Positions 10,901 to 35,915 of a DNA stretch of 36,609 nt are shown one piece after another (positions within the stretch are counted from its first letter, which is position 1; each line of letters starts with the position of its first letter). This DNA is from a virus: positions 1 to 36,609 of IMG/VR virus record IMGVR_UViG_3300018876_000047. One strand, written 5' to 3'. The position numbers and the translations under genes were made by a program. Under the pieces are notes generated by a model. The model saw nothing but the letters and a program-made list of their open reading frames with translations, was not told where the DNA came from and ran no database searches.

Positions 10901-13900
10901 CATCGATACCGATGGTCTCAATCTCGTCAGACAGTCTTCTAAATGCAGCTACTGTTTGAGCTCTTTCATTTGCAATCGTAGAGGCAGCAGTAGCATTGTA
11001 GTATGCCAATCCAGCCTGTACTGAGTTGAAGTTGGTTCCTAACTGGATGTCTAATGTTGTCGAATCAATGATGTACCCAGTGTCTCTTTCACACTTGGCC
11101 AGATCATAGGTGAAATATCGGTCTTCAAGGAATGCCGTGATTTCTTTTTGCAAGAACGCCTTATTGGCTTGAATCTTTTGACGGCCGAGAAGTCGATTTG
11201 CATTAAGAGCATTATCGCCCCATACAATCACATCAGCCGAAGGAGCACCATTCGTCATGATATCAATGATTTCATTGAAACCTGCATCTACCCTAGCCTT
11301 GGCCGTGGTATCTTCTACTCTGAGTGCCGTTTGTTGCTTGATGTAGTTTATGGCTCCAACGGTCTCAGTTAACTGATCACTGACAACCAAGTCAGCGGAT
11401 ACTGTTCCAGCACGATATGCAAGACCATTGAATATAGAATTGAAATTAGATCCTGTCAAGACATCACGCTTAACAGCATCCATTAATGTACCAGTATCAC
11501 CCGAACAGTTCACATTGTTGTATGTGAAATATCTATCGTCGAGGTAGCTAATCACCTCTTGCTGGATAAACGCCTTATTTGCTTGCAAGTGTTGACGAGC
11601 AATAGTTTGGTTTGGATCGGCAACTGGTCTTACAAGAGTCGGGGTGACAGGATTTTCAAATACTGCCAATTGTACGGCAAGTGTATCGATCAAATCATGT
11701 ACTGAAGTGCCCGTGGCTACATTTACTGCGTTACCAGAAGTGTCTTGGACAATACTGTTTCCGCCTTGAGGAGATACTGCTACATTTCTAACTATGTCAT
11801 CAGCAATATCAGCAAGGTGTTGGAAGGCAAGTTTGGTCGGTACTCTTTGCTCTAGTGGTAAAATGTTGACCTGATTGATAATAGGCTCACCATCTTTAAG
11901 ATCGACACCAAGAGCACCTTCGAAGTAGTAATTAATTGCCTCGATTGTAGATGCGTTTCCACCGTATTCGATATCCTTAGACACAGCATCCAAAATAAGA
12001 CCAACATCTCGGTAGCACTTATCTTGCTTGTATGGCAATCCATTGAATGTTGGTATCAGGTGAACATCAATCACATCGTCTTGGAGTCGTGCTCTCTGAC
12101 CATTGATCCATACTAGGGCATCAGAATAACCAGTCTCTACGACAGGCTCAACAGCTTCTGGTACAAGAAGATCACGGCTATCACCGATTGCAGTAGCAGT
12201 GATATTCATCAAATTACGAACCTGACTTGCCAGGGTCAAACCTAAATCTGGTTGTGATTGGTCCTGAACCTCAGCATTACCCGTGGTCGGTACAACCAAT
12301 CGATCTCTTACGATCTGGAATGCAATCTCAGCCAAATGGGCAAATGTATTAGCAGTAGGAATAACCTCATCCGCACCTAATTGTGATACAGCATGATCGA
12401 AATAGAATTTAGCATTATTACCGGAAGCAACATTAGATCCATGTTGGATATCCCAAGATGCAGCATCAATAAGGAATCCAGTATCTCTTTCACACTTAGC
12501 AACATCATATTCTAGGTCTGGATATGTGGCTGCAACATAGGCAGTTGCCTCTGCAATCAAGAATGCCCTATTCAACTGTAAGATTACTCTAGCATTAAGA
12601 GCATTGGCACTTACGGAATTGGTTCCAAAATTATAAGGATCGGCATTTCCAGTTCCATTATTGAGAATATCAATGATCTCGTCGAATGCCGTATTAGATC
12701 TTGTCAGTTCGGCACCTGATAAACCAGCACCAATTTCACTCTTCAGATAATTAATTGCTGAGGTGGTTTGAACTAATTGATCTGTAATTACAGTTTCGGT
12801 ACCTAAGGCTCCAGAGCGATAGGCAAGGCCAGTGTAGACCGCATGATAGTTAGAACCAGATACAATATCTCGTTTGACAGCATCGAGGATGAGTCCAGTA
12901 TCTCGTGAACACTTCTCACCGTCGAAGGTGAAATAATTTGCATTAAGATATGAAATCACATCTTGTTGCATGAAGGCCTTGTTTGCCTGAATCGTTTGTC
13001 TGGCGTATTGACCTTGAGAATTTGTTGTTACCTTGGTCACAGCATTTGGCGTGACAGATACAAACGTATGATTACCACCAGCACCTACACCAGCATTAAC
13101 AACGAAAGTATCGGCAGTCGGTACCGACGTTACCTGCATTGGAGTATTATAATTCGCATCACCAACACGAGGATATGAATGCTGTGTAGCATTTCCGTCT
13201 AGGTCACACGTGAAGGTAAATGAATATGGAGCAAAGATTACCCAATCGTCTGTCGTCAGACCATGGTTTGTAACAGTAAGTGTACTGTCGCCCGTGACTG
13301 GGTCATACGTAGCAGTTGACGGTGTGAGATATTCTAAATTAGATGCAGGATCTGACCAAACAATTGTATCGACATTGTCTAAACCGTTGTTGATAATATC
13401 GATGATCTCGTCAGCCGCGGCATCTGTTCTCGTCAGAGAAGGTTGGCCACTAATCGCTGCAGCCACCTGATTCTTGACATAACCCCATGCGCCAACCGTG
13501 GGCTCTAATTGGTCGTTTATGACCTTGGTTGAAATGCCCTGATAATATGCAATCCCTGCCTGAACAGAATTAAAATTCGTTCCTAAAGCAAGATCTCGTT
13601 CGATTGCAGGAAGGATGTAGAGATTTGTATCTCGTGCACACTTGATGTCATCATAGACAAAGAATGCGTCGTTAATCCATCCAACAATATGATCTTGGAT
13701 ATATTCTTTGTTTGCCTGAAGTTGCTTTCTTGCATTTCTTCTATCTACCGAGATACCAGCGTCATCACTAAACGTGATAGCATTTGGTACCACAGATATT
13801 GAATTGACGTTTGATCGAATATAGATGTGATCTGAAGTCTCCGTAGAAGCACCCACATGAACTGTGATCGTGTCTTGAGTAGTTGAAAGAATTGGCAACG

Positions 13901-16900
13901 GCTTATTGAATGCCGGATCTGTTGCCCTTGGGTGAGAGATCTCAGCAATATAATTATCAGATCCACATCGGAATACGAAGCTCTCTTCTTCTAACAGAAT
14001 GCTTGTTCCAACAGTCAGGTCGTGATCTTCTATGGTAATCGTAAATGTGCCGGCGACCGTATCATATGTCGCGAAGGTAGCTGTATATTGGCGACCAGTT
14101 CTTTCGAGGATATCTAAGATGTTGTCGAAGGCAGCATCTACACGAGATGCACCAAGATAACCGAGAGAATCGATCAATTCATTTGTTTGATCTTTCAGAT
14201 GCTTATAGGCACCTATTGTCTCTTCTCGTTGCTTCTCAACAACCTTTCTGGCTGTCGCCATGTAATATGCGTTACCAGCCGTAATCGAGTTATAATTGGT
14301 GTCTAACTGAGCATCATATTTAACTGCTGGTAAAATATAGTCCTCTGTATCCCTACGGCACTTCTTGCTGTTATAGGCAAAGAATTCGTCATTATTGTCA
14401 ATCCAATCGACAAAGTTTTCGATGATGAGCTCTTTGTTATCTTGCAGTATTTCTCTTGCCTGAGTTTGTTCATCGACACCTGTATCAGCAAAGGTTAGAG
14501 GATCAGCATATGACTCTCCATTCTCCAAAATATTGAGTGTCGCATCAAATGATGTATTTGCTCGAGTATTAATCGTTGGATCATTTGATTGGAAGATCGC
14601 CTCTACTCGGTCCTGAAGATATCGGATTGCTCCTGCTGTCTCTTCTTGTTGGTCATTAATGACGACATAAGAAATTGGGCTTCGATATGTGATACCAGCC
14701 AATCTTCCCCAGTAGTTAGAATCGGTAGCGATATCCAAACCCACTCCGTCGAGTATAATGCCGGAATCTCTTTCACATTTTTGAGAATCATAAACCTCAT
14801 AACCTAATCCTCCATCACTGATTGGAGTGGTGAGATGGTCGATCATATCTTGAACGATATTATTCGATTCTGCAACTAACGTATCACCGAATGCTGTATT
14901 TTGGAATATCGTGCCGGTAGGTTGCCTTGGTTGATAGAATGTGGCAGTACCCTTGGCTCTCATCGATATATCACCGAACTGAGAACCTGAGTTATTCAAT
15001 GTCACCTGACCACCGTTCAATGCATAGAACGCACAACGTGTGAAGATCGACAGCGAACCAATTCCGTTGACACCGGCACCATCTCGGGCAACATATCCGA
15101 TACCATTCTGGGTTCTAGGTGTGAAACCGAAGCAGAGAACATACGTATACAGAGAGTCTTTATCGAGAACTCGTCGGTCGGCAAGAAGACATCCCCCACC
15201 TCGTCCCACGAGTGGATTCGGGAAGTCATCTATACCTATACTTTCTACGATACCAACACCACCGGATTCAGAAATGACAGTATCGCCAACATTGAATCCT
15301 TCACCATTTTTCAGGTTACGTACGTAAATCTTTCTTTGAGTAACAAGATCACCTGGTATTACCGGTATCTCAAGAGCAGCATCTGCAGCGTCATCCCATG
15401 ACAAGAAACCTACAGCACCACTAGAGAAGGTTACCTTATCACCGAATAACCATTGACCAGAATAGCCAGGCTCTAAAATGATCTGTCGACCAAGGTCAGC
15501 AATTGTTCCCTTGGTGTTAAATGGATTGAGGGGTGGTTCAACATCAGCACGTAAGAAGTTAGAGAGCTGAGATGAATCCCTCAAATAAGGTGAACGTCGG
15601 AGTTTGGCACCTGGTCGATAAGCAACAGCGAAACCACCTTCTGGGAAATCGAAGTTGTCGACCTTCCAATTAGTGTATGAGAAACCTTGTAGGTAACAGC
15701 CGGAACCTACCAACCAACAGTTATTGTTTTCGTACCCGGGTAATGCCTCGATTACAGTGGCGTATTGTCCTGACGTAGATGTTGCAGAACAATCATCTGG
15801 AATGGCAAGGTTACCCTTGGTGTAATATGTTCCTGGGCCAACAGAAATATGTACGGCGTTATTGACATCGTTACGATCAAACTTGCCGCCTGCCTTTTCG
15901 AGGGCCAATTCACAAGCTCTTTCAAGTGATTTAACAGGCTGGAGCATAGATCCGGGCCACTCATCACGGCCGTGAGAGACATCAACGTGAATCTTTAATG
16001 CCTGAGATACTGATTTGGCCAATTCATCGTAGAATTGCTTATACGTGATCTTTTCTGTTTTTCCGGTCTGGAAATTCTTTAATGCGAACCAAGACTCTTC
16101 GTGGATATTAGGATCGAATACCTCTTTCAGATCCATCTCGAAGTCTTCAAGCTCACCTTCGATGAATCGAGCGTTTGTCACCAATGAATCATCGACAGTA
16201 CCATTCGCAAAGAATGATGTCTCAATGGTTGAATCTTGCATATCAGAATCTAAGATCACCGTGTTGGTCAAGGTGGTCTCAGATATCGTGCCTTCTCTGA
16301 AATCAGTTGTTAAGATTGTCGAATTGGTGATCAGTGAATCATCTAACGTAGTACTGGTGAATAGGTTATTCGAACCAGTGCCATTAGAGAAGTCTGAGTT
16401 ATCGATGTCTAGGTTATCACCAGTTGAATTTAGCAATTCACCTTGCGAGAATACAACATTATTGGCAGTACCATCATTGAACTCAGACTGTGTGATAATA
16501 GAGGTATTAACCGTGCTATTAACAAGAGCAGATTCTGAGAAAATGTTGTTGTTACCAGTTGAATTGAATATGACACTGTTATCCATAATGATATCAGTGG
16601 CAGTAGAATCTGAAATCTCGCCAAGAGTAAATGAGGATTCGAGAATTTCTGAATATTCAATTGTTCCATCAGTAAAGGTACTGAACCCGATAGACAGGTT
16701 ATTGGCAGTACTGTCTGCAAGATTTCCATTTAAGAACTCAGACTGAGTAATGACAATATTGTTTGCATTCGAATCAGTGATATCACCGTCTGTGAACAAC
16801 GATTGTGTAATCGTTACATTATTCGCAGTAGAATCGAATATCGCACCATCAGTGAAGGTAGACGCGCTAATGTCGACATTATTTGCTACGGAATCAAATA

Positions 16901-17483
16901 TAGCCCCATCGATAAATGTCGAATTTGTTATAACAAGATTATTGGCATTAGAATCTTCGATATCTCCATTTGAGAATAGAGACTGATCGATGACAGAATT
17001 TGTTAGGGTGACATTATTACCGGTGCCATCGTTGAACTCAGAGTTCGTGATGATCATATTATTACCGGTAGAATCAAATATGGCTCCATCGGTAAATGTA
17101 GAATCTGTAATGGCTACGTTATCAGCAGTAGAATCGGTGATCTCACCATCAGTAAAGGTGGAGTCGCGGATATCTAAGCGAAGAGCAACAGAATCTTGAA
17201 GGGTACCATCTCTGAAAGTAGATCGTCGAATGATACTGTCTTCCATTATGGAATCAGTGATGGTTACGTTACGGATAAGAGAGTCAAAGATTGTGACACC
17301 AGAAATCTGACCACCAGTAATTCTGATGCGTGAGAAGATCTCGTACTGAATTGCTTCTACGAGCTCTTTACGGGTAATATTTTTGGTGCCGTCATCACCT
17401 TGGATAAGGTTGACGATGACGAAGAGGTCTTCACTACGGGTATTGGCACCAGTGATCGAACCTAACTCTGAAATCTTAGCCAT
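4950..17483 (-). CDS. Giant modular tail fibre/adhesin with 19 KCxRD repeats
   Basis: 4177 aa, roughly 460 kDa, the largest gene here. Residues 1-65 (MAKISELGSITG, DLFVIVNL, GDDGTKNITRKEL) resemble N-termini seen on fibres of T4-like marine phages. Residues about 65-450 are about 20-residue repeats ('DSTANNVTITQSLFTDG'), probably a beta-helix. Residues about 500-850 resemble a pectate-lyase-type helix ('HVDVSHGRDEWPG', 'VHISVGPGTYY'). From about 900 to 3800 there are 19 copies of a 130-170 aa module centred on YDxxKCxRDxGYIxDAxxxD, followed by a degenerate copy near 3910. Two beta domains are inserted near 1130-1240 and 1385-1480. The C-terminus is basic (SSVRKLARRASQSR). The start has AAAGGTAAAGG upstream and an exact late promoter. 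A host-contact fibre is likely but inferred. Confidence 0.85.
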   Translation of the reverse strand: MAKISELGSITGANTRSEDLFVIVNLIQGDDGTKNITRKELVEAIQYEIFSRIRITGGQISGVTIFDSLIRNVTITDSIMEDSIIRRSTFRDGTLQDSVALRLDIRDSTFTDGEITDSTADNVAITDSTFTDGAIFDSTGNNMIITNSEFNDGTGNNVTLTNSVIDQSLFSNGDIEDSNANNLVITNSTFIDGAIFDSVANNVDISASTFTDGAIFDSTANNVTITQSLFTDGDITDSNANNIVITQSEFLNGNLADSTANNLSIGFSTFTDGTIEYSEILESSFTLGEISDSTATDIIMDNSVIFNSTGNNNIFSESALVNSTVNTSIITQSEFNDGTANNVVFSQGELLNSTGDNLDIDNSDFSNGTGSNNLFTSTTLDDSLITNSTILTTDFREGTISETTLTNTVILDSDMQDSTIETSFFANGTVDDSLVTNARFIEGELEDFEMDLKEVFDPNIHEESWFALKNFQTGKTEKITYKQFYDELAKSVSQALKIHVDVSHGRDEWPGSMLQPVKSLERACELALEKAGGKFDRNDVNNAVHISVGPGTYYTKGNLAIPDDCSATSTSGQYATVIEALPGYENNNCWLVGSGCYLQGFSYTNWKVDNFDFPEGGFAVAYRPGAKLRRSPYLRDSSQLSNFLRADVEPPLNPFNTKGTIADLGRQIILEPGYSGQWLFGDKVTFSSGAVGFLSWDDAADAALEIPVIPGDLVTQRKIYVRNLKNGEGFNVGDTVISESGGVGIVESIGIDDFPNPLVGRGGGCLLADRRVLDKDSLYTYVLCFGFTPRTQNGIGYVARDGAGVNGIGSLSIFTRCAFYALNGGQVTLNNSGSQFGDISMRAKGTATFYQPRQPTGTIFQNTAFGDTLVAESNNIVQDMIDHLTTPISDGGLGYEVYDSQKCERDSGIILDGVGLDIATDSNYWGRLAGITYRSPISYVVINDQQEETAGAIRYLQDRVEAIFQSNDPTINTRANTSFDATLNILENGESYADPLTFADTGVDEQTQAREILQDNKELIIENFVDWIDNNDEFFAYNSKKCRRDTEDYILPAVKYDAQLDTNYNSITAGNAYYMATARKVVEKQREETIGAYKHLKDQTNELIDSLGYLGASRVDAAFDNILDILERTGRQYTATFATYDTVAGTFTITIEDHDLTVGTSILLEEESFVFRCGSDNYIAEISHPRATDPAFNKPLPILSTTQDTITVHVGASTETSDHIYIRSNVNSISVVPNAITFSDDAGISVDRRNARKQLQANKEYIQDHIVGWINDAFFVYDDIKCARDTNLYILPAIERDLALGTNFNSVQAGIAYYQGISTKVINDQLEPTVGAWGYVKNQVAAAISGQPSLTRTDAAADEIIDIINNGLDNVDTIVWSDPASNLEYLTPSTATYDPVTGDSTLTVTNHGLTTDDWVIFAPYSFTFTCDLDGNATQHSYPRVGDANYNTPMQVTSVPTADTFVVNAGVGAGGNHTFVSVTPNAVTKVTTNSQGQYARQTIQANKAFMQQDVISYLNANYFTFDGEKCSRDTGLILDAVKRDIVSGSNYHAVYTGLAYRSGALGTETVITDQLVQTTSAINYLKSEIGAGLSGAELTRSNTAFDEIIDILNNGTGNADPYNFGTNSVSANALNARVILQLNRAFLIAEATAYVAATYPDLEYDVAKCERDTGFLIDAASWDIQHGSNVASGNNAKFYFDHAVSQLGADEVIPTANTFAHLAEIAFQIVRDRLVVPTTGNAEVQDQSQPDLGLTLASQVRNLMNITATAIGDSRDLLVPEAVEPVVETGYSDALVWINGQRARLQDDVIDVHLIPTFNGLPYKQDKCYRDVGLILDAVSKDIEYGGNASTIEAINYYFEGALGVDLKDGEPIINQVNILPLEQRVPTKLAFQHLADIADDIVRNVAVSPQGGNSIVQDTSGNAVNVATGTSVHDLIDTLAVQLAVFENPVTPTLVRPVADPNQTIARQHLQANKAFIQQEVISYLDDRYFTYNNVNCSGDTGTLMDAVKRDVLTGSNFNSIFNGLAYRAGTVSADLVVSDQLTETVGAINYIKQQTALRVEDTTAKARVDAGFNEIIDIMTNGAPSADVIVWGDNALNANRLLGRQKIQANKAFLQKEITAFLEDRYFTYDLAKCERDTGYIIDSTTLDIQLGTNFNSVQAGLAYYNATAASTIANERAQTVAAFRRLSDEIETIGIDAGVAGATVTNSLNASIEVVANIIEDANTAPSLTWSNPGIVAERTYAREQLQINRDFIIAEVIAYITEELPNYDVATCQRDIGYILDAVRRDLILNTTHNTITAGDAYLRTGSAYVLSDQKEYTIAGVERAREQVKALGLATADATIDTLFERVIDVLDGTVTTYTVPSYPLTGSGSYQTTERNTAKNQIQNNRAAIQQSVVDYIGEQFPELVYDVADCFRDSGYILDAVSHDVLYGGNSASIRAADAYFVGAASQLGPEEVAPTIQAFSFLKGKVNEFVTTTPERLRVVELIDIIIDVLAAGTTAGLPAVVEPDLTGLNTADHDAIQTAQTLIEQDVTDYITATYPIYDQAKCERDTGYIIDAISHDLQYAGNRATLAAANIYFEDGINVLPSLQRADTEDAYVHMSSVMQDIVVETVVTPTTGNAETQDVSGNAASATEATTVSELMEIIIDALTAATISEANIPARVEPDLSFVATDIQTWASNTVSATATLKSAVTDFLNRDYDNEVCERDLDYIIDGIRRDLLTGSNYNSVTNGEAYLRSTSEYLLGNQSEATAAVIQYAVDQIKGLGSVTSDATVQSLADIVIDILDGSATTTPAVTYPSNGSATYQTAQRTAASTAIQANKATIISDIQDFIQANYPNIYYDNAKCTRDLGYIIDSVRRDLILGTNHNTVTSANAYLRTSSGYPANGQSTATIAAIEFARDKLTRLPAVESIGEINDLFDRVIDVLNGSVTTFEPSTFPTTEGADYQTDDRVEAVSLIQGNKQQFAIELTTWIADQVAANTSPFTTDFTYDVADCERDTKFILDGISHDIKYGGNSSSRLSAIAYFDNATSQVPGEEAQTIAAFGQLKTIVNQIVTTAPEQTRVNDLIDITINVLIAGSTAGMPAEVDIDVTGLDTTEYDQFTGNQASIISDTITFVNTNYATYDIADCERDTGYILDAISHDVKYGGNIGSRASARAYFDGAVNQLGSAAETTASIGAYTELKTLVRDILVADPIATTTEADECDALIDIIIDVLNDGNLDNLPAEVEIVTTGYTTTEYDDITANQTSIIANSIVYANNNWPNGLGYDAAKCERDVGYLLDCVSFDLQHGGNSATIQDAEMYFTNAYTVNTLPENQRRASERAFAHLAEVTRQVVNAETVTPSPGNPESQIVGVTAGTEAADRSKVLVNITTNVVGAASLSGLPAEEEPDTAAYDAVYVSAFNAIEAIIPTVQKDVITYLAREWNGLGYDQAKCFRDTGYVVDAISHDIQYKGNAATWNAAQIYFVNAVNLLPYDQREPTKLAWMRLAEVVEKVVQLQAVTPTPGNTVAQITTGITGNPLIGERAKELGMYIANIVDDPDDSKLPLRDEPDYDWVASNYTADVDAIEAQAATISTGVIDYIAKNWNGLSYIEKSCRRDVGFIVDAISHDVQYGGNRATRINAQIYFENAISVLPVSTRRQTADTYEYLGLLVRDIVQGIDTQDTQYTTTAQDFTGDNSNSSEGARAQDLVQIIESVIREDNLDVLVSQVEPDLSWVDAELVTLGTTIDNNDTVLADRMIEFINKEFDVLDYDRDKCYRDSGYLLDAFSWDLNYNSNLASRWNADFYFWNNILRLPEEQREPTGRSYRELGEICARALKGELEGQVLNSGFPSEVEVEKVKDLANIFYLTLYNNTPKNLPVKIQPDEAWMGDIYLDAKAALTAKRVDLAKDVVRWVGATYRFVDEYLTRRDAGNLIQAMVNDFKYVNTALATPGGYSGPGYGSSFATLTYSASFFDQEGKIVFPVFNPSDAYPNLIFKGVLENTGALPSTGQRPNWAYIVSTAYAVNHWEGDIYFWDGIGYQNAGANNTDLLDAFTGCWDRLQNYITTNLTPDPDHTLMVNTLISEALKDNILRPDSLVFGSLVESIAHQFNGASAGVNRNALPLNFRNLGSAISALASVQYEDGGRIRWSGSDELNNQYFARGLRINGRTGRIEGRPFTSSVRKLARRASQSRASI
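5740..14815 (-). repeat. Array of 19 KCxRD modules plus one degenerate copy
   Basis: Cys-Arg-Asp motifs lie near 14770, 14350, 13630, 12905, 12487, 12010, 11495, 11085, 10665, 10243, 9839, 9364, 8942, 8495, 8093, 7660, 7175, 6695 and 6211. A copy without the Cys is near 5755. Most units are 400-515 bases; two are about 720 because of an inserted beta domain. Two subtypes are visible. A shorter one has 'GSNYNSV..G.AY' after the core. A longer one has 'SHDxxYGGNxA...A..YF...LPxxxRxPT.....LAEI', often followed by 'VxPTTGN'. Each unit has one conserved Cys. Confidence 0.85.
16040..17300 (-). repeat. Beta-helix-like 20-residue repeats at the N-terminus of the giant fibre
   Basis: About 20 tandem units on the theme 'xDSTxNNVxITxSxFxDGxI', for example 'FDSTANNVTITQSLFTDG' and 'DSNANNIVITQSEFLNG'. 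The regular Asp-Ser, Asn-Asn and Thr/Ser-x-Phe pattern resembles right-handed beta-helix or pentapeptide-like coils. Open frames of up to 233 codons on the plus strand here are by-products of the biased repeat codons. Confidence 0.7.
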
Positions 17484-24524: not shown

Positions 24525-26159
24525 TTAAAATTCGAATACTATCTTAAACTCTTCTCGTGAAAGAGGATTTCTTTCTAATGGGAAGAAGTCTTCGATATAG
24601 TATACCTCTCCCGTTTGTTGTTTATAAAGTGGTGTCACTATGTTATTTGCTGCCGGTGAATTCGGAGTAATGATAACACCGGTATCTGTTCTAAATGGCA
24701 ATGCTGGATCTAAAGAAATATCACTACCAGGTTGGTTTGGATAGACCCCGACATATTGTGCTATGTAAACCGTGTTTGAAGTGAAATCTAATTCATGTAC
24801 TGTTCCACTGAATATGGTTTCATTATTCGAATCTATCTGGGTAATAATTGTATTAGCAGTAATAAAACCAATATCGTCTGTCGTCACTGCAATTCTATTA
24901 TCGAATATCTCCTGTGCGATGACAGCATTATTTGCATTTGGATCGGGGAAGAATTCTGGCTCTTTTACGATACCAATACCATTATATGTATTTGTATCAC
25001 CGATCTGCTCGTTATCATCACCCGTAATGAATCCATAAAGCAAGAAATGCTTGCACTTCAATTCATCTAAAAGATTATATCCGTGGCCACCGGGTGGTGA
25101 TAATACTGGTCTGATCTCTGCCCTCACATCTGTGGTTGCCGTATCTTCTGGATCGAAATCAAACAGAGGATCTTTTACCACTGCAGATGCATTTCGATAA
25201 CCACTACCTGCTGTGATCACCTGAATATTATTTATTCTACCTGAATCAACTTCTGCTACAGCTGATGCACCAGTTCCATCACCGGTAATGGTAATAAAGG
25301 GAGTAATTCCAATGGCCGCAGAGCCTAGATTATCTGGCTGAGGATCTGGTGTTACCGTAAATATCCCTCTCTGTGTACCTTCGTCGTATTCATAATCCGT
25401 CACTTCATAATAAAATGTGTTTGCGGATACTGTAGTTGCCCTTAATCTTTGGCCGATGAAATAATCATTCGCATGATATTTGACATTTTCTCTAAGAGTG
25501 GCACCAGTTACCTGAATCTCGTTAGGGGATACAGCACCTACGATATTAGCCAAAATCTCTTCATAGCCTTGATTGATATCTTTATTCTCGATAAAAATAT
25601 CACTGAATGATGATAAGAAGGAGGTATTCGCAACTGGATCTGATTCGAATGTGCCAACGATTGGAATATAACCCAATGCGTTATAAGCCTCAAATTCAAT
25701 TAAACTGATTGCGTATAGGTATTTCCAGACGTATCCATCTGCAGTACGATAAATTTGATCTCCTACCGCGGGATCGTAATTAGGTGGGGATGATACCTCA
25801 CCGCCATAATTATTAAATAGACACTTATAAACACGATAGTCACCCGTATCGTTATTGGTGGGCCCTACCACGGCATAGAATCGTTCATCTTCTAAATCTA
25901 CTGTATCGTCGTATTGGACGTATGTGTCTCCGTTGGCCCATGGGATATATTTGATCATATATCGCACGTCTTCCTGACGGATCTTTTTGCCGAATAATGT
26001 TTTTGATAGGAAAGAATTTTTGGCTACCTGTGAATTCGTGGCCTGGATACTTCCTAATTCAATCCCTGAAACAAATACATACGTATTCGAAGACTCGATG
26101 TCTTCGTAAAAACGTCGAAGGACATCGGTCTTATAATTTGTTGTTAATATTTCGGCCAT
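24525..26159 (-). CDS. gp8: Baseplate wedge protein, gp8-like
   Basis: 544 aa. The N-terminal half carries the gp8 pattern of T4-like phages: 'TDVLRRFYEDIESSNTYVFV', 'RQEDVRYMIKYIPWANGDTY', 'YRVYKCLFNNYGGEVSSPPN' and 'RTADGYVWKYLYAISL'. In T4, gp8 is a dimeric wedge component bound to gp7 and gp10. Its length exceeds T4 gp8 (about 334 aa), as in many marine relatives; the extra C-terminal half is beta-rich. It follows the subtilase gene by 33 bases, with a late-promoter-like AATAAATA in the gap. Finding gp8 separated from gp6 and the gp7-position gene by a fibre and a protease gene is unusual for the order I know. Confidence 0.8.
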   Translation of the reverse strand: MAEILTTNYKTDVLRRFYEDIESSNTYVFVSGIELGSIQATNSQVAKNSFLSKTLFGKKIRQEDVRYMIKYIPWANGDTYVQYDDTVDLEDERFYAVVGPTNNDTGDYRVYKCLFNNYGGEVSSPPNYDPAVGDQIYRTADGYVWKYLYAISLIEFEAYNALGYIPIVGTFESDPVANTSFLSSFSDIFIENKDINQGYEEILANIVGAVSPNEIQVTGATLRENVKYHANDYFIGQRLRATTVSANTFYYEVTDYEYDEGTQRGIFTVTPDPQPDNLGSAAIGITPFITITGDGTGASAVAEVDSGRINNIQVITAGSGYRNASAVVKDPLFDFDPEDTATTDVRAEIRPVLSPPGGHGYNLLDELKCKHFLLYGFITGDDNEQIGDTNTYNGIGIVKEPEFFPDPNANNAVIAQEIFDNRIAVTTDDIGFITANTIITQIDSNNETIFSGTVHELDFTSNTVYIAQYVGVYPNQPGSDISLDPALPFRTDTGVIITPNSPAANNIVTPLYKQQTGEVYYIEDFFPLERNPLSREEFKIVFEF

Positions 26160-26186: not shown

Positions 26187-26194
26187 TATTTATT
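26187..26194 (-). promoter_or_regulatory. Possible late promoter (AATAAATA)
   Basis: The minus strand reads AATAAATA, 7 of 8 to TATAAATA, 28 bases before the gp8-like ATG and overlapping the stop codon of the subtilase gene. The same word occurs 27 bases before the 512-aa gene. Spacing supports it, but the same word also occurs inside genes. Confidence 0.45.
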
Positions 26195-28250
26195 ACCCGA
26201 GTCTAATCTTTCTACGAGGATATGTTTGACCACTTACAGGCCGGCTTTGATATACGTTTGTTCGAACTGGCTCACTGACAAATTCTGGCACCACCCTATA
26301 TCGCCAAGGCAAAGCAAAGCGTTTTTTGTTTACAGTGGCATAGTATGCCTGAGTTGTATTGCAAAATACAAAATCCTCTCCGGGTCCTCCAGACTGACTG
26401 GTAGGTTGATACCTTACACGATCAGGTTTATAAGCAGCGCTGCCTCCTGTTGAATCTCCTACATTATTAATATTAAGGCCATTATTACCCTCTACCATAT
26501 TAGCAACTTCCTGCATGATCGAAGTGGCACTACCAGCTGAAGACCAATCAAAAGGTTGGTTTGTGGGTTCAAAGATAGGTTCAACCATTGTATTATAATC
26601 CACAGAATCTTGTGCCTCTTCTATTAAAGACCTAAGCTCTGCTATCGTTGGCCATGCACCTTTCTTATTATAAAAATATTCGACTAATAAAGCAGCGCCT
26701 CCAACAACTTGGGGGCATGCATTACTGGTACCACCATATAAACTCCATACATATCCATTTACATCGCTCTGCGGATCGCCATAATTAGATACTGAATTAT
26801 ATGCGCGCTTCACCTCGGCAGTTGTAGTTACAAGATGGCCATGAGCAGCGCTCTCGGAAAATGTATTATATAAACCAGAATTGTTGCATCCTCCAACGAC
26901 AATTGCGGTTTCATGATTATATGGATCTCTATGAGGATAAAATGAGCTAGTTGTTGCTCTATTTTCTATCGTCCAGTCTTCATTATAAAAACCGCCTTGT
27001 GAATTAGAAATAGCATATATATTCCCAGCGTCAGTGAATAACTGATTATTCCATTGCGGCTGGGAGTCGTCTGCTCTATATACGTTTGGTTCATTTCCTG
27101 AAGACCAGAAAGAATATATGCCTTCATATGTATTTAAATTATTCCAAGCCAAATCTAACGTAAAAGATGCTCGGGACGACTGACCTGATTTTACACACCA
27201 AAAATAATTGCCGGGTGCATCAGACCTTTCTATCTGCCATAATGAAAATCCACCAGCATGAAAAGCTGTGAAATCATTGGCCCAACCACCACCAGGTCTG
27301 TTCACAGTTGTTTGATTTCCATCGCTATCATACCAAATAAATTGTGAGATTAGATCAACCGGAATATAATAATTAAACTGGCCGCTGGCGAAGTAGCCCC
27401 AAGAATTGTTTATGATTGTCGCGTTTCTTCGGCCGGTGGCTGAATTGATTGGTTTGGTAATGTGCCAAGCCACTATTGCGTTGACAGCCGCAGTCGCGCC
27501 ATTAGTAGTATATATCAATCTTACATCAGAATTCTTTGCCCAGCCGGTGCACGTTCCGGCTGCTGCCATAGCAGACGCAACAGCATGTTCATGTACATAG
27601 TTTGTATTGGATACCTGATTATTTTCAGACGCAGTTACAGAACCATCATAAGAACTCCAATCCATTGGAACAATTTTGAAACTATTATCACTTGGTTTCA
27701 AAAAATTGGGATGGCTGGCGTTATTCGACATTAACGTATTGTTCTCATTACCGGCCGGTTCCAATATGACTATATCAACAGTAGACCCATCAAAGCTTTG
27801 TTTAATAGTAGCGTTTGAGATTGCAATTGGATCTTCCTGATCTCCATCAGCCAGGCCAGAATCATAAAACATTCCAACAGTTTGACCGGATGCAGTGAGA
27901 GATGAGGTATCTATTCCTGCAGAATAACAGATAAAGCTACTGGTATATTCCGAGCCATCTACAGAATTCCAAGCAGATTGTTGGTCTACCGTTGGCTTTT
28001 TTGTCTGAGTGATTTCATTATAACCATGATGCTTTACATTTCTTTCTTCTCTAAAAATCCAATCTACTTCTTGGACACGAGAATCAGCTTCCAAAACATC
28101 TTTTTGGCTATCTGTCATATCAATAATAAGACATCGAGGAACATATTGCAGTGTGCTGGGAATGTCCACCACACCACTGAACTCTGCTACAAAGTCATCT
28201 TTATCGACGCCTTCAGCTAGTACAACCTCATATCTTTTCTTGTCTGACAT
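26193..28250 (-). CDS. Subtilisin-like serine protease (S8) with I9-like pro-domain
   Basis: 685 aa. Residues about 6-66 look like an inhibitor-I9 pro-domain ('YEVVLAEGVDKDDFVAEF' to 'DSRVQEVDWI'). The catalytic core is complete: Asp130 in 'VGMFYDSG', His220 in 'YVHEHAVASAMAA' (aligning with HGTHVAG; the second motif His is shifted), oxyanion Asn386 in 'FWSSGNEPN', and Ser509 in 'YGGTSNACPQ'. 'IINNSWG' (279-285) is a further S8 hallmark. No signal peptide is visible. The last about 85 residues ('SAAYKPDRVRYQPT', 'YPRRKIRLG') are basic and may be a virion anchor. The ATG is one base after the stop of the 512-aa fibre gene, so the two are co-expressed. Roles in maturation of virion proteins or digestion of host surface proteins are both possible. 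Confidence 0.88.
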   Translation of the reverse strand: MSDKKRYEVVLAEGVDKDDFVAEFSGVVDIPSTLQYVPRCLIIDMTDSQKDVLEADSRVQEVDWIFREERNVKHHGYNEITQTKKPTVDQQSAWNSVDGSEYTSSFICYSAGIDTSSLTASGQTVGMFYDSGLADGDQEDPIAISNATIKQSFDGSTVDIVILEPAGNENNTLMSNNASHPNFLKPSDNSFKIVPMDWSSYDGSVTASENNQVSNTNYVHEHAVASAMAAAGTCTGWAKNSDVRLIYTTNGATAAVNAIVAWHITKPINSATGRRNATIINNSWGYFASGQFNYYIPVDLISQFIWYDSDGNQTTVNRPGGGWANDFTAFHAGGFSLWQIERSDAPGNYFWCVKSGQSSRASFTLDLAWNNLNTYEGIYSFWSSGNEPNVYRADDSQPQWNNQLFTDAGNIYAISNSQGGFYNEDWTIENRATTSSFYPHRDPYNHETAIVVGGCNNSGLYNTFSESAAHGHLVTTTAEVKRAYNSVSNYGDPQSDVNGYVWSLYGGTSNACPQVVGGAALLVEYFYNKKGAWPTIAELRSLIEEAQDSVDYNTMVEPIFEPTNQPFDWSSAGSATSIMQEVANMVEGNNGLNINNVGDSTGGSAAYKPDRVRYQPTSQSGGPGEDFVFCNTTQAYYATVNKKRFALPWRYRVVPEFVSEPVRTNVYQSRPVSGQTYPRRKIRLG

Positions 28251-28251
28251 A

Positions 28252-29790
28252 TTAGGTCTCTAATGTGAGAGCAGTTAATGTTACCGTGACCGTACCAGTA
28301 GAACCAGTATTATTTTGTATTGCAACTGGGACCACGGTTTCTGAATTATCTAACCAACCGAATACTGCAGGAGTAATCTTTACGGTTCCGGCTCCGGTGA
28401 ATACTGCTTCTGCAATTACACCAGAACCTTCTGCAGGATCTACACCTTGTGTTCTTCCAGCGTCAGCCGTTCTTGCAGCCGTATCTGAGTAAATTCTAAC
28501 CCAAGCTGCACCATCTGATTGAATCGAATAAAGTGCATAGGACTTACCGATTGATGCATATTCGACATTATCAGAAGCTCCGTCAGCAATAGATGCCGTT
28601 GTTTCTGCCTCTGTGTTTCGTGTTGCACTACCTCCACCACCACCGGCGGATGGATCTCGAACAACAATATCACCATTCATCGATGCATGGACAGTACAAA
28701 CATATTCATATGTACCAGCAGGGGCGTTACCTGGGATTTTCCAATAGAGTGTACCGCTTGTTTTATCTTGAGCATTACTTCCTGTAGTTGTTGTACCATC
28801 TTGAGCAACGTGTACCAATCCTGTATTATAATTAGATCCGCCACCGATATCTAAAATTCTAAATGGGTGAGATGCAGTAACACCATCGAGATTGAAGGCA
28901 ATCGTCTGGCCACGATCTACATAGACTGTGGGATTATCACCTGGGTATTGATCAATCAGATAACGTGTCGAATCAGGTCCAGTGACTACCAAGTTACTGA
29001 CAGCCTGTAACGCAATATCATCAACATCTAAATCGGCTGTATCTACCTCGGTTAGTGTGGCAAAGGTACCACCACCACCGCCGCCTGCAATTGTCACGGT
29101 GACATCATCGCCAGAAGTCGAAGCAACAACACCAGCACCTACAAAATTGATTGATGCCAGACTAGTCGTTAATGAAGATCCTTCATCTGATACGGTGATA
29201 TTTGCACCACCACCGCCAGTGGCATCTGTATCATTAATCCAAGCTGATCCATTATATTTTAATACCTGGCCATTGGTCGGACTGCTGATTGTGACATCGC
29301 CGAGATCAGGTAAATTACTAGCACCACCGCCACCAGCATTGGTTACCCAAGTATAGGTACCATCTCCATTTGTCTGTAATACGTAATTGGCCGCTTCTGT
29401 GTTTGTAATAGTACCGTCGTAGACAAATGGTGCAAGAGGATCAACATATGAACCTATATTACCAGCTGAATTATCACTGAGAAGTTTATTCCACTGCCCA
29501 TGAGCATAGTACATGGCCCCTGTGTCATGAGCGTGAGCAATGACTCCGTGATGCGCGGCTGGATCTAATGCAAGAACCTCGGATTCTAATGCGTAGAGGA
29601 AAGAAATTTTATTTGCTGTACCAAGAAGCTCTATTTCTTCATCTGAGTTGACAAGGTTGGTAACGATATCCCCACCTAAAGAGTTATACACCTCTGTGAA
29701 GTTACCATTAATTTTCTGCATCGCTGTTCGTATAGGATCACCAGTGCCGTCATTGGCGACTGCCCCTATATCGACTGTTTGCTTGGCCAT
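28252..29790 (-). CDS. Fibre/structural protein with a cupredoxin-like domain
   Basis: 512 aa. Residues 1-40 ('VANDGTGDPIRTAMQKINGN', 'FTEVYNSLGG') are an N-terminal motif common in marine phage fibre proteins. Residues about 120-240 are Gly-rich beta repeats of the type 'LPDLGDVTISSPTNGQVLKYNG'. Residues about 275-380 form a cupredoxin-like domain with His308, Cys365, His368 and Met371. Residues about 395-512 are a second beta domain ('YALYSIQSDGAAWVRIYSD', 'TGSTGTVTVTLTALTLET'). The start has GGAGA six bases before ATG and a late-promoter-like AATAAATA. It is followed one base later by the subtilase gene. A virion surface or fibre role is inferred. Confidence 0.8.
   Translation of the reverse strand: MAKQTVDIGAVANDGTGDPIRTAMQKINGNFTEVYNSLGGDIVTNLVNSDEEIELLGTANKISFLYALESEVLALDPAAHHGVIAHAHDTGAMYYAHGQWNKLLSDNSAGNIGSYVDPLAPFVYDGTITNTEAANYVLQTNGDGTYTWVTNAGGGGASNLPDLGDVTISSPTNGQVLKYNGSAWINDTDATGGGGANITVSDEGSSLTTSLASINFVGAGVVASTSGDDVTVTIAGGGGGGTFATLTEVDTADLDVDDIALQAVSNLVVTGPDSTRYLIDQYPGDNPTVYVDRGQTIAFNLDGVTASHPFRILDIGGGSNYNTGLVHVAQDGTTTTGSNAQDKTSGTLYWKIPGNAPAGTYEYVCTVHASMNGDIVVRDPSAGGGGGSATRNTEAETTASIADGASDNVEYASIGKSYALYSIQSDGAAWVRIYSDTAARTADAGRTQGVDPAEGSGVIAEAVFTGAGTVKITPAVFGWLDNSETVVPVAIQNNTGSTGTVTVTLTALTLET
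28651..28968 (-). other. Cupredoxin-like domain of the 512-aa protein
   Basis: Residues about 275-380. The pattern 'RGQTIAFN', 'SHPFRILD', 'NAPAGTYEYVCTVHASMNGD' gives His308, Cys365, His368 and Met371, the full type-1 copper ligand set with an amicyanin-length C-x2-H-x2-M loop. It shares with the collagen-fibre copy the landmarks HPFxI, YNTG, NAP, YxCxxHAxMxGxI and a closing Asp. Confidence 0.78.
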
Positions 29791-29824: not shown

Positions 29825-32077
29825 TTAAATTGTGTTAACATTATCTGATGTCAATATTGTAGAATCTACAGTAAAGTTTAAAATATCTGAGGTAATAGCA
29901 TTAATATCCTGGGTATCGAAAATTGAACCCTGGCCATCATCATTGAAATATCGAATGAAGTTAGAGGTTAATGATATACCTACTTTGTTTTTAAATAAGA
30001 ATTGATTGAATACCTTAGTACCGGCAAGATGCACATTCTCAAGAAGACCCGGCATGTAATCTGCTGGATTGACGGCACTCTTAAGCTCATAAGAATACTC
30101 CTGAAGATAATCACTATCCTGAACCTTCTTCTGCGAATCGTAATAAAAATCTTCACCGTCCTCGGCCAGTGTTTTCGTGTATCCATTAATATGAGAATTA
30201 AAATTAGACCAATAACCAGAATTCGTGCCCTGTGATTGTGACGTTACCACTGCCTCTGCTCTAACCGATCCATCTGAGGGTCTTGTCAGCTGTACATATG
30301 TCCCATCGGGATATCCAAACCCAGAGCCTTGAACAGCTACCTCTTCAATCGTTCCTATTTCGAATGCTACAGGAGATGCAATGACAGCGTTTTCACCCAA
30401 TTTAGGCGAATCATAATTTTGTTCTGACTTTATCGTTGAATATAAGACAATACCATCTCTAAGAATATCATTTGTTTGGCTGTCAAACCCGTAATAGGTG
30501 TAAGGTGTGATTCGAAGATAGCCGTTAGAATTAATCTCCCTCACGATACCTTGTCTACCAGTTCCTGTCTCTGTGATGATATTACCGATTGAAAAATCAA
30601 ATACCTCTTCGGAATTGGTGAAGATAATATTTTGGTCTCTTCGGTCGAATCTGGAAAATAAAGAATCTTGCAATACAGATTTCACATCATTTGTGTAGGC
30701 AGTACCAGGGTTGACGTTTAATAACGCATCGATAGTTCCAATGGTAATATCTTGCAAATCAAATGCGTCTTCTAGTACGGTATTAATATTGACAGGAGAG
30801 GCTGAACCAGACATTGGAGTACTTGCTCCATAATCTGCAGCATTTAATGCGACAGACACATATGGAGAAATTAGGTCAGTGATAAGACTGACTGTCTCTG
30901 AATTAGATATGGATTCTACTCGAACGTCTGTCGATAATCCGGTATCTGGTTCTAAATTACCAGGAGCAGAACTATTGAGAACTGTGTAACTGACTGCTGG
31001 TACAGTAATATTTGGATTACGATCAACTGTACTTACGGTATATGACAGACTGAATGATGTACCAGTGTCTATTCTGACAGCAACATAACTCGTTGTTTGT
31101 CCTGTTACTACACCAGATGTACCATTCGTGTCACTGAGTCTCTCGTATATTTCGAAATCTTCAGCCGAATTATCTAAAAGGATGAGCTGATTCGAAGAAA
31201 GTAATCTTGTTTCTTCGAGACTGTAACCCCAACCACCATCTTGTAGATCGTATTTTACCTGACCGTCAATATCTTCTGATATCTTTGTGACGACTGCAGT
31301 ACCTCCGGTCCCTATCGGCGATGTGACATTTACAATATCACCAACCTCATTACCTACGGTTCTGATTCCGAGCTGATCATCAACATCTAAAAAGTTCATA
31401 GATCCGTTTACGAATCCAAATCCTACCTCTACACCATTCACGATTGTCAATAATTGATCATATTTTTGAAATGAACCTCTTACCTGATCAATATAAATGA
31501 TCGGGGTCAAGATACCATTTAATAGAATCGTATTAATTTTATCGACCGCAGCCTTTGCTCCAGAAAACGATCCTGTAATATTACGAGAAAGAAGTGTACT
31601 ATAATCGTACTGTTCACCGGTGGGTGAAAAGAATTGATTATTATTTGGGTACATCTGCAGATAATTACCGGTCTTCCATTTAGAGTCGGATACCTTGAGC
31701 ATATTCGCTGCAGGATAAACGACCTCAACATCCTTATTGTAAAACATTTGGAAGAAAAGCTTAATGCCAGAAGCCGAACCTTTACGTTGATATAGATCAA
31801 GGATATTTCGAACTAGTACCTTTACCCCTGCTTCATCAAGGGGAAGATCTGCCATATATTTATTTTTAAAGTAAAGTAACATCTCATTTTGAGTGGTCGC
31901 GATATCACGATACTCAAACATCCTACGAGCATTATAGGTAGATTGGTTCGTGGTCTCTTCCAACCACTTGTAGTATTCTTTCGTGAGTGCAATCAATTCC
32001 TGTCCGCTTTCCTTATAGATAGCGGGGTATTGACTTTCTACGAAGAGAGATACATTTTTGTCTACAATGCCAACCAT
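29825..32077 (-). CDS. Baseplate wedge protein in the gp7 position
   Basis: 750 aa. Residues 1-120 are helical and conserved in style: 'ESQYPAIYKESGQELIALTK', 'EYYKWLEETTN', 'LVRNILDLYQRKGSASGIKL', 'FFQMFYNKDVEVVYPAANML'. I associate this pattern with the structural gene after gp6 in T4-like marine phages. The rest is mostly beta-rich, with internal repeats of the type 'GDIVNVTSPIGTGGTAVVTK' and a final 'NFTVDSTILTSDNVNTI'. It starts 14 bases after gp6. In T4 the next gene is gp7 (1032 aa), the wedge backbone; this protein is shorter, and the gp7 equivalence rests on position and general character only. Confidence 0.7.
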   Translation of the reverse strand: MVGIVDKNVSLFVESQYPAIYKESGQELIALTKEYYKWLEETTNQSTYNARRMFEYRDIATTQNEMLLYFKNKYMADLPLDEAGVKVLVRNILDLYQRKGSASGIKLFFQMFYNKDVEVVYPAANMLKVSDSKWKTGNYLQMYPNNNQFFSPTGEQYDYSTLLSRNITGSFSGAKAAVDKINTILLNGILTPIIYIDQVRGSFQKYDQLLTIVNGVEVGFGFVNGSMNFLDVDDQLGIRTVGNEVGDIVNVTSPIGTGGTAVVTKISEDIDGQVKYDLQDGGWGYSLEETRLLSSNQLILLDNSAEDFEIYERLSDTNGTSGVVTGQTTSYVAVRIDTGTSFSLSYTVSTVDRNPNITVPAVSYTVLNSSAPGNLEPDTGLSTDVRVESISNSETVSLITDLISPYVSVALNAADYGASTPMSGSASPVNINTVLEDAFDLQDITIGTIDALLNVNPGTAYTNDVKSVLQDSLFSRFDRRDQNIIFTNSEEVFDFSIGNIITETGTGRQGIVREINSNGYLRITPYTYYGFDSQTNDILRDGIVLYSTIKSEQNYDSPKLGENAVIASPVAFEIGTIEEVAVQGSGFGYPDGTYVQLTRPSDGSVRAEAVVTSQSQGTNSGYWSNFNSHINGYTKTLAEDGEDFYYDSQKKVQDSDYLQEYSYELKSAVNPADYMPGLLENVHLAGTKVFNQFLFKNKVGISLTSNFIRYFNDDGQGSIFDTQDINAITSDILNFTVDSTILTSDNVNTI

Positions 32078-33930: not shown

Positions 33931-34365
33931 TTATCTAATCCTTTCTAAAATCACATCGAGTGTGATCGGCTGTTGTCTGTTGCGAATATAAAATTGAATG
34001 ACAACACCAACTGTATTATCATCAATTTCTGACCGAACAGAAACATCTATAAGTTCTGCTCTTGGCTCATACAATTCAATGGTTGATGTTATTTTATCTT
34101 TTAATAATTTCAGTGTAGATGGGGTAATATTTTCGAAAAGCAATTCACGGATGCCACCACCGAGGAATGGTTGCATAGGTCTTTCACCTGGGTCCGTCAG
34201 TAAAAGATTTTTGATTGCATCTTTCACTGCGTCCTCATCTTTCAACATGACGATGTCAGCAGAAAGAGGACTCTGAGCAAGATCTTTTGAAAAATCTTGA
34301 TACAGAGATACCTTTTTAGTGACCGGGGTAAAGAGATCCCTGGCGTCTAATGTTGTCAGTGGCAT
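33931..34365 (-). CDS. gp25: Baseplate wedge protein gp25 (GPW/gp25 family)
   Basis: 144 aa, near the family's usual length (T4 gp25 is 132). It has 'LLLTDPGERPMQPFLGGGIR' (residues 54-73), the 'ERP' and 'GIRELLFE' elements, and the diagnostic EPR motif at 100-102 ('YEPRAELIDV'). In contractile injection systems gp25 forms the core bundle with gp6 and nucleates sheath polymerisation at the baseplate. The start ATG overlaps the stop of the upstream peptidase-like gene by one base (TAATG) and has a strong AAGGAGA ribosome site at 34374-34380. Confidence 0.96.
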   Translation of the reverse strand: MPLTTLDARDLFTPVTKKVSLYQDFSKDLAQSPLSADIVMLKDEDAVKDAIKNLLLTDPGERPMQPFLGGGIRELLFENITPSTLKLLKDKITSTIELYEPRAELIDVSVRSEIDDNTVGVVIQFYIRNRQQPITLDVILERIR

Positions 34366-35915
34366 TACGATGGTCTCCTTCTTATATCAAGGTGTATATC
34401 ACCCGAATCTAAGAACCTTACGTGTTTAAAACCTACCTTTATGGCTGTATTTGTAAATGTTTCCTCATCATCACCCGGTGCCTTGATGTCTACGACTTTA
34501 CCACTCATATGAGATGATTCCGGTGGAGCTCCAATTTCTTCATTATATTGTTGACTTCTCCAGCCAGATGTGATATCCATCTTAGACCCAAGCTCATCTG
34601 ATAGTCGAATCAAATATACCTTCACATCTAAATCAATATTGACATAGCCCTCTAGGCCACAGTTTTCATCATCGACCCAATCACCAGATATACCTATCTT
34701 ACTGTCTGTACCCTCTTTCACATCTTTACATGATGGCAGGGTAGAATATTCTTTAATGGTAATTCGTTTCACATTCACTGGTTCTTCTCCAGTGGGAGTA
34801 ATTGCCTTACCATTCTCAGGTGACCACATCGTCTCCTGTTTCTCGATCAACTCTTTTTTCTTCTCGTCTGACATTCTTACAGCACCATTTCTGATTGCTG
34901 AAGATGTGTTGATGTTAGAAATGATCTTAAGTCGATTCGCTATATTAGAATATTTATTTGCAAAGTTGTCAAGGGGTGACTTAATCTGGTTCATTAACGC
35001 CTCAATGTTGAAGATAAAGGCGCAAAAACGAGAGATTAAATAATATAATTCCTCAATATTGGGATTCTCGAAGAGGCCAACAGCGTAATCGACGAGAGAT
35101 TTGAATTTATCTTCAATTGCTTTTTTGTTTTCGTCATTGAAAAACAAACACATTTTCTCTTTTTGAGTCATCACTCTCTTCACCAACTGTTCATTGATGA
35201 AGGTAGATACGTTGCCAATTACATTCTCGATATTGAAGTTTTCAATTGCACTTCGGATATTATCAAACGCATCCATCAACCCCTTGATTAACTGTTCCTT
35301 GAGTTTCTCGATTAATGCTTTGACAGTAATTTTTTGTATTGCGGCCTTGATAATATCATCAAGGTCACGAATCTTGGTCAGAAATTCCAACGCGTCTTTA
35401 ATAATTGCCTCTGCAGTGCCCAATAGAGTAAAGAACCCTTCAATCTGAGCAAAGAAATTAGGCATCTGGGCACACAGACCTCCCATTGAGCTCTGAGCGA
35501 ACGATCCCTGATAATAGCTATTAAGCTGGGACAATAACACAGGTACATCATTAAAGCACTTATCTGTGCAATCTGCCGGTGTTAAATTATAGTCAGTGAT
35601 AAACCCTGCGTATTCTAAGGCTGTGATAGGCCCTTGTTGCAATCGATTGTTTAGGTCTGGATAACCACTACCACCAGTTCGATTTAAAAGTGTATTTAAT
35701 TGTTGTTGTCCTTCACCAAAGGTATCACCATATCGGCGAGTAGCTACTGCGATGGGATTTGATTCTGCCTCATCTAATACATTTTGCTCTAACGCTGCAG
35801 AAAACGCCTCGATCTGCCTGAAGGTATAATTACCACGGCCATTGATCGTAGGTCCTTGAGGTAGAGATAACCTATTCTGTAGAGTTAAATTAGTATCGTC
35901 AGCACAAACTTCCAT
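34365..35915 (-). CDS. Baseplate-associated protein with C-terminal M15-type zinc peptidase domain
   Basis: 516 aa. Residues 1-150 have several Cys and no recognised family. Residues about 150-340 are long amphipathic helices ('DDIIKAAIQKITVKALIEKL', 'KEQLIKGLMDAFDNIRSAI'). Residues about 440-516 match the M15 D-Ala-D-Ala carboxypeptidase-like fold: 'MDITSGWRSQQYN' at 446-458, then 'SSHMSGKVVDI' with His469 and Asp476, and 'GDIHLDI' with His508, giving the three zinc ligands. Such enzymes cut peptidoglycan peptides. T4 puts a lysozyme inside gp5; here a peptidase beside the spike gene may do that job. The ATG lies one base after the gp5-like stop with GGAG upstream, so they are coupled. Confidence 0.82.
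   Translation of the reverse strand: MEVCADDTNLTLQNRLSLPQGPTINGRGNYTFRQIEAFSAALEQNVLDEAESNPIAVATRRYGDTFGEGQQQLNTLLNRTGGSGYPDLNNRLQQGPITALEYAGFITDYNLTPADCTDKCFNDVPVLLSQLNSYYQGSFAQSSMGGLCAQMPNFFAQIEGFFTLLGTAEAIIKDALEFLTKIRDLDDIIKAAIQKITVKALIEKLKEQLIKGLMDAFDNIRSAIENFNIENVIGNVSTFINEQLVKRVMTQKEKMCLFFNDENKKAIEDKFKSLVDYAVGLFENPNIEELYYLISRFCAFIFNIEALMNQIKSPLDNFANKYSNIANRLKIISNINTSSAIRNGAVRMSDEKKKELIEKQETMWSPENGKAITPTGEEPVNVKRITIKEYSTLPSCKDVKEGTDSKIGISGDWVDDENCGLEGYVNIDLDVKVYLIRLSDELGSKMDITSGWRSQQYNEEIGAPPESSHMSGKVVDIKAPGDDEETFTNTAIKVGFKHVRFLDSGDIHLDIRRRPS

Follow-up and report, generated by a model that had tools for sequence, protein, structure and literature searches.

A predicted subtilase with glutamate at the catalytic acid position, paired with a fibre-type gene in a T4-type baseplate block, is a candidate virion-borne protease

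What would a subtilase do among the baseplate and fibre genes of a phage? The question is raised by a 36.6-kb virus fragment from a marine T4-like phage, IMGVR_UViG_3300018876_000047, positions 1 to 36,609 (hereafter "the window", meaning the whole stretch of 36,609 nucleotides analysed), in which an open reading frame with an ATG start fills positions 26193-28250 of the minus strand and encodes 685 aa. This gene and its neighbours are:

26193..28250, minus strand: subtilase-fold protein P0001 (open reading frame; fold match; family profile against the PDB)
28252..29790, minus strand: gp10/gp9-N-type baseplate/fibre partner gene, 512 aa (Pfam T4_gp9_10_N, 2.6e-6; phrog_677, 1.3e-42)
24525..26159, minus strand: gp8-like baseplate wedge gene, the downstream neighbour (phrog_438, 1e-49)
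29825..32077, minus strand: gp7/gp53-type wedge gene, the upstream neighbour (PHROG match; phiM12 homologue)

In the direction of transcription, the order is the end of a gp5-like spike protein (an assignment made by eye), an M15-peptidase protein, gp25, gp6, the gp7/gp53-type wedge gene, the gp10-like gene, the subtilase gene, gp8, a DUF4815/vrlC-type gene and the fibres. The subtilase gene sits inside a T4-type baseplate block, between the gp10-like gene and gp8, confirming its placement in a baseplate/fibre block by an earlier note made from the sequence. Its start codon lies 1 nt beyond the end of the partner gene, and the gp8-like gene occupies the identical slot beside the subtilase in many relatives. 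Very large fibre genes lie near the subtilase gene; at positions 4950-17483, a 4177-aa fibre-type protein is encoded whose N-terminal part consists of imperfect repeats in a long series, for example ITDSTFTDGAIFDST.

We modelled the window subtilase with AF2 from an alignment of 61 relatives. Confidence in the model was moderate (pTM 0.67, mean pLDDT 64.9), and residues 571-672 were not modelled confidently. VIA-align matched the catalytic part to ProteinT (Z 26.2, 3.0 A, 266 residues), aqualysin I (Z 26.0, 2.8 A, 257 residues) and proteinase K (Z about 25), and Foldseek likewise found proteinase-K-type subtilases. The family profile aligned with aqualysin-1 and proteinase-K-like enzymes over the acid, His, Asn and Ser motifs; an alignment profile was required, and a phmmer search of the PDB with the single window sequence returned nothing meaningful. 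Pfam Peptidase_S8 (PF00082) matched 58 of the 61 aligned family members and did not match the window protein at E<=1. Taken strictly, the protein departs from S8 in two respects, the catalytic Asp and the Pfam model. By prediction, then, the window protein has the subtilase fold, as the earlier note had claimed, and it belongs to the subtilases by fold and descent, not by the Pfam S8 model. The T4 prohead protease gp21 (S77) is also a phage-encoded serine protease, but of an unrelated family; the window protein has the subtilase fold instead, and it gave no Pfam match. Three segments of the protein could be assigned:

26616..27833, minus strand: catalytic domain, about residues 140-545 (AF2 model, VIA match, family profile)
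28053..28250, minus strand: putative I9-like pro-domain, residues 1-66 (order of strands and helices in the model; conserved ending in relatives)
26196..26243, minus strand: conserved basic C-terminal motif RPVSGQTYPRRKIRLG, residues 670-685 (family motif scan)

The earlier note had described an I9-like pro-domain without a signal peptide, which is plausible. Residues 1-66 alternate between strands and helices in the AF2 model, and an I9-like ending, 'L..DPRV..VE', is conserved across the subtilase family at the end of this segment; Pfam I9 itself gave marginal matches, in 5 of 61 members (best E 0.13). Consistent with the absence of a signal peptide, the N-terminus of the window subtilase holds no strongly hydrophobic stretch. 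Overall, the window protein resembles the subtilases of MEROPS S8/PF00082 in its fold, in the motifs around His, Ser and Asn and, probably, in the type of its pro-domain. It differs from S8 enzymes such as proteinase K, aqualysin I and subtilisin in having Glu for Asp, an altered His motif, large insertions, a phage fibre context and no signal peptide, and in lying below Pfam detection.

We next consider the gene immediately upstream. The product of this gene ends in a domain that recurs beside subtilase genes:

28255..28629, minus strand: C-terminal partner domain, ~125 aa, residues 388-512, predicted beta-sandwich (gene-pair counts; AF2)

The AF2 pLDDT for partner residues 389-512 was 96.4. 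In the relatives set, the partner domain lay directly upstream of the subtilase at 59 of 67 loci, the other eight being mostly contig ends, second tandem copies or a split gene. In a larger set, from which loci retrieved by way of the partner domain were left out, 83 of the 90 testable loci seeded with the subtilase were paired and 7 were unpaired, with 7 more cut. The gap between the two genes ranged from -20 to +6 nt. The coupling to a fibre gene is far tighter than was visible to the earlier note. Conversely, 77 open reading frames with the partner domain were followed by a subtilase in 75 cases and by a baseplate wedge-type gene in one, with one cut off; this figure of 75/76 describes the nearest loci, the 80 best among more than 580 candidates, and is no census. 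Two loci (L066 and L083), and probably a third (L193), carry two tandem subtilase genes.

The partner domain ended 0-2 residues from the C-terminus in 271 of 273 matches, in proteins of 180-1076 aa with stems of varied length. In two alignments, mean column identity was 58% for the partner domain versus 12% for the subtilase. Annotations of the proteins that bear it read tail-fibre, baseplate, structural or hypothetical, and against PHROGs the domain matched solely families of unknown function. Among solved structures it resembled beta-sandwich folds weakly, with a VIA Z of at most 7.4, and gave a weak Foldseek match to the HFTV1 turret (E 1e-4); we assign it no function on the strength of these relatives. 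In the isolates S-BM3, S-SCSM1, PSS2 and S-CBS2, which include siphophages, the gene downstream of a partner-type domain encodes a protein without a subtilase match, an arrangement that fits an adaptor role. The pattern as a whole is what would be expected of a domain that serves exchangeable tip proteins as a dock or cap. The putative tip proteins of S-BM3 and S-SCSM1 (L218, L219) share a C-terminal 'PCPYY[IL]PDDFV' motif, which the PSS2 protein in the corresponding slot (L215) does not have. On the subtilase side, a motif of the type RPxSGxxYPR ends 155 of 178 long, complete subtilase open reading frames and was absent from every other open reading frame scanned; our guess is that this C-terminus is a docking tag.

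We propose, with a probability of roughly 0.5, that the window protein is a virion-borne zymogen subtilase on the tail-pin or fibre tip that acts on host surface proteins. The upstream gene would provide a fibre or gp10-like connector with its C-terminal beta-sandwich as the docking site, and the subtilase made from the next gene would bind this domain, perhaps via its basic RPxSGxxYPR C-terminus. The pro-domain would keep the enzyme folded and inactive in the producing cell, and in the finished particle it would cut host surface proteins during adsorption, making it an enzymatic receptor-binding part. Sequence or prediction backs the fold, the positions, the gene pair and the occurrence of Asp and Glu as the sole acids found; docking, zymogen control, activity, location in the virion of the window phage and the host target are what we infer. 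The virion enzymes known to open a path for phages act mostly on sugars or peptidoglycan. If the proposal is true, a widespread, modular fibre-tip protease of marine T4-like phages would represent a different entry strategy and could affect host range; the partner domain would also offer a handle for finding tip enzymes now filed as "hypothetical".

The main rival does not require contact with the host: the protein could serve in assembly, as a protease produced inside the host cell that trims its partner protein or the long virion fibres during maturation. The obligate-looking pairing with a fibre/gp10-like gene, the lack of a signal peptide and the proximity of the very large fibre genes would all fit such a role, but we consider it less likely than the fibre-tip reading given two comparisons. 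The first is with Sinorhizobium phage phiM12, the nearest core relative, whose gp6 is the closest match to that of the window (40%). Despite encoding the same wedge, gp8 and vrlC-type proteins, phiM12 has no subtilase gene; its homologue of the gp7/gp53-type wedge gene directly precedes gp8, indicating that the gp10-like gene and the subtilase are an extra pair relative to phiM12. The protein encoded at 34365-35915, with a C-terminal M15 peptidase domain, adjoins gp25 in the window as it does in phiM12 (SmphiM12_144), and is probably a second baseplate enzyme, one that cuts peptidoglycan.

The second comparison is with S-SCSM1_228, a homologue in cyanophage S-SCSM1 that joins a subtilase and laminin-G/ConA-like lectin domains in one protein and is annotated as "baseplate wedge subunit (virion protein)", an arrangement better suited to a surface role than to assembly. 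The S-SCSM1 study reports 45 virion proteins identified by mass spectrometry (PMC9602691), and for S-CREM1 the number of virion proteins detected is 14. Note that the S-SCSM1 subtilase is an Asp form that has additional lectins and, upstream, no detectable partner domain, and its virion status may for these reasons not transfer to the window protein. The suggestion of the earlier note that the enzyme could be virion-borne is plausible, with this one annotated homologue in its favour. The earlier note had also set the enzyme apart from the head-maturation protease of T4, and this distinction probably holds: of 4 larger records with the subtilase, 3 have a distinct gene for the S77 prohead protease, making head maturation an unlikely role.

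We also determined which residues would form the active site, counting alignment columns over 144 non-redundant relatives:

27759..27761, minus strand: codon GAA for E164, at the position of the catalytic Asp of subtilases (profile alignment; 144 relatives)
27585..27587, minus strand: codon for H222, the catalytic His, not H220 (144/144 relatives)
27093..27095, minus strand: codon for N386, the oxyanion-hole Asn (141/141 relatives where aligned)
26724..26726, minus strand: codon for S509, the catalytic Ser, in GGTSNACP (139/140 relatives where aligned)

In the profile alignment with aqualysin-1, the E164, H222 and S509 columns fall on the catalytic Asp, His and Ser motifs. The acid column contains Asp in 102 of the 144 relatives and Glu in 42, including the window, with no other residue; because this conserved column corresponds to E164, the window protein carries Glu in place of the usual subtilase Asp. 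The earlier note had called the enzyme intact on the strength of Asp130, His220, Asn386 and Ser509. All four letters are present, and N386 and S509 are conserved, but the other two are not catalytic columns. D130 was rejected as the catalytic Asp since it sits in an insertion absent from 113 of 144 relatives, and H220 as the catalytic His since most relatives have S, N, G, D or T there. With two of four named residues wrong and Glu at the catalytic Asp column, "intact" does not hold in the canonical sense.

The window copy would cut with S509, H222 and E164 as a Ser-His-Glu triad, N386 lying in the oxyanion hole. Triads of this kind do occur in serine hydrolases, among them acetylcholinesterase and some lipases; we know of no characterised subtilase with such a triad, and a search of open-access papers (subscription papers being outside its reach) found nothing relevant on Glu in the subtilase triad. 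Replacement of Asp by Glu could lower activity.

An alternative is that the protein is a pseudo-protease or a weak enzyme, its fold retained as a module for binding at the tip of the fibre, with the Glu marking loss of catalysis. The 42 relatives in which Asp has become Glu and HGTHVAGT has been rewritten would be in keeping with this, as would the failure of the Pfam S8 model to find the window protein. By contrast, Ser, His and Asn are invariant in 42/42 Glu forms, and the acid position is never anything other than D or E. The catalytic residues of close relatives, whose degradation the earlier note had named as telling against its proposal, give a mixed picture: they are altered in the window and 41 relatives at the acid, which is nowhere lost, and Ser, His and Asn are kept. 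The His motif of the Glu forms is HAIGVLSA in place of HGxHVAGT, with the second His changed to Gly in 40 of 42, Gly to Ser in 41 of 42 and Ala to Leu in 35 of 42. In a quick maximum-likelihood tree from which these active-site columns were left out, all 42 Glu forms and two Asp forms made up one set (SH-aLRT 99). The fewest Asp/Glu changes on this tree number three, for example Glu gained once and Asp regained twice, and the starred branches by themselves force two; that returns to Asp are permitted also speaks against lost catalysis. One Asp/Glu pair of proteins is 83% identical, with codons GAC and GAA. Within the Glu group, 24 of 406 catalytic-domain columns are invariant, including E164, H222, N386, S509, G507 and T508.

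An acid column limited to Asp and Glu, the retention of His, Asn and Ser, a single supported group and a His motif of its own together lead us to read the triad of the Glu forms as a working Ser-His-Glu triad and not a decaying one, and we regard loss of catalysis as improbable. Going further, we suggest tentatively, at somewhat less than an even chance, that a lineage of working Ser-His-Glu subtilases serves as exchangeable fibre tips, attached through the docking domain and cutting host surface proteins at adsorption, which would make them a proteolytic counterpart of the polysaccharide depolymerase tailspikes. The clean Asp/Glu split, the co-changing His motif and the two Asp members in the Glu group also amount to a natural experiment on the triad acid. 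Within the literature searched, the Glu lineage and its obligate-looking partner pair appear to be new. That the enzyme instead works on host proteins inside the cell during infection, outside the particle, is very improbable: the lack of a signal peptide would suit it, but the gene follows immediately on a fibre-type gene, inside the late baseplate/fibre block, and a homologue is annotated as a virion protein.

Related proteins have been annotated before. Cyanophages S-H38, S-CREM1, S-WAM2 and S-H9-1 carry annotations of "subtilisin-like serine protease" or "peptidase", and P-HM1 and P-HM2 encode the S8 peptidase T4-GC518 (PMC3037559); the literature searched for these proteases gives them no function, and open-access papers, to which the search was confined with subscription papers outside it, yielded nothing relevant on phage tail subtilases. 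The S-H38 and S-CREM1 proteases are homologous to the window subtilase (26-32% identity) and occupy a matching slot, in the order gp10-like gene, protease, one gene, gp8; unlike the window protein, they are canonical Asp forms. A search for psbA, as an indicator of a cyanophage-type host, gave no match in three fragments. A Glu-type subtilase pair does occur on a contig (L304) that was binned with a Rhodobacteraceae genome and is probably phage, as another of its open reading frames resembles a T4 gp52-type topoisomerase (read by eye). With gp6 nearest to that of phiM12, this contig makes an alphaproteobacterial host of the window phage possible.

The best phage-database match of the window subtilase is the "putative proximal tail fiber protein" of the cultured phage S-CAM1 (phrog_15006), a Glu form with its partner gene 1 nt upstream, as in the window. 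It differs in being filed as a fibre rather than a protease and in having an inserted cupredoxin-like module. Two fibre-type proteins of the window also contain such modules, recognised by ligands in the arrangement of a type-1 copper site (HP ... CxxHxxM):

28252-29790, residues about 308-371: cupredoxin-like module
3-4472, residues about 949-1001: cupredoxin-like module

Several phage subtilases likewise have cupredoxin-like modules, as insertions or fusions, and one of them (L053) matches Pfam Copper-bind with an E value of 1e-7.
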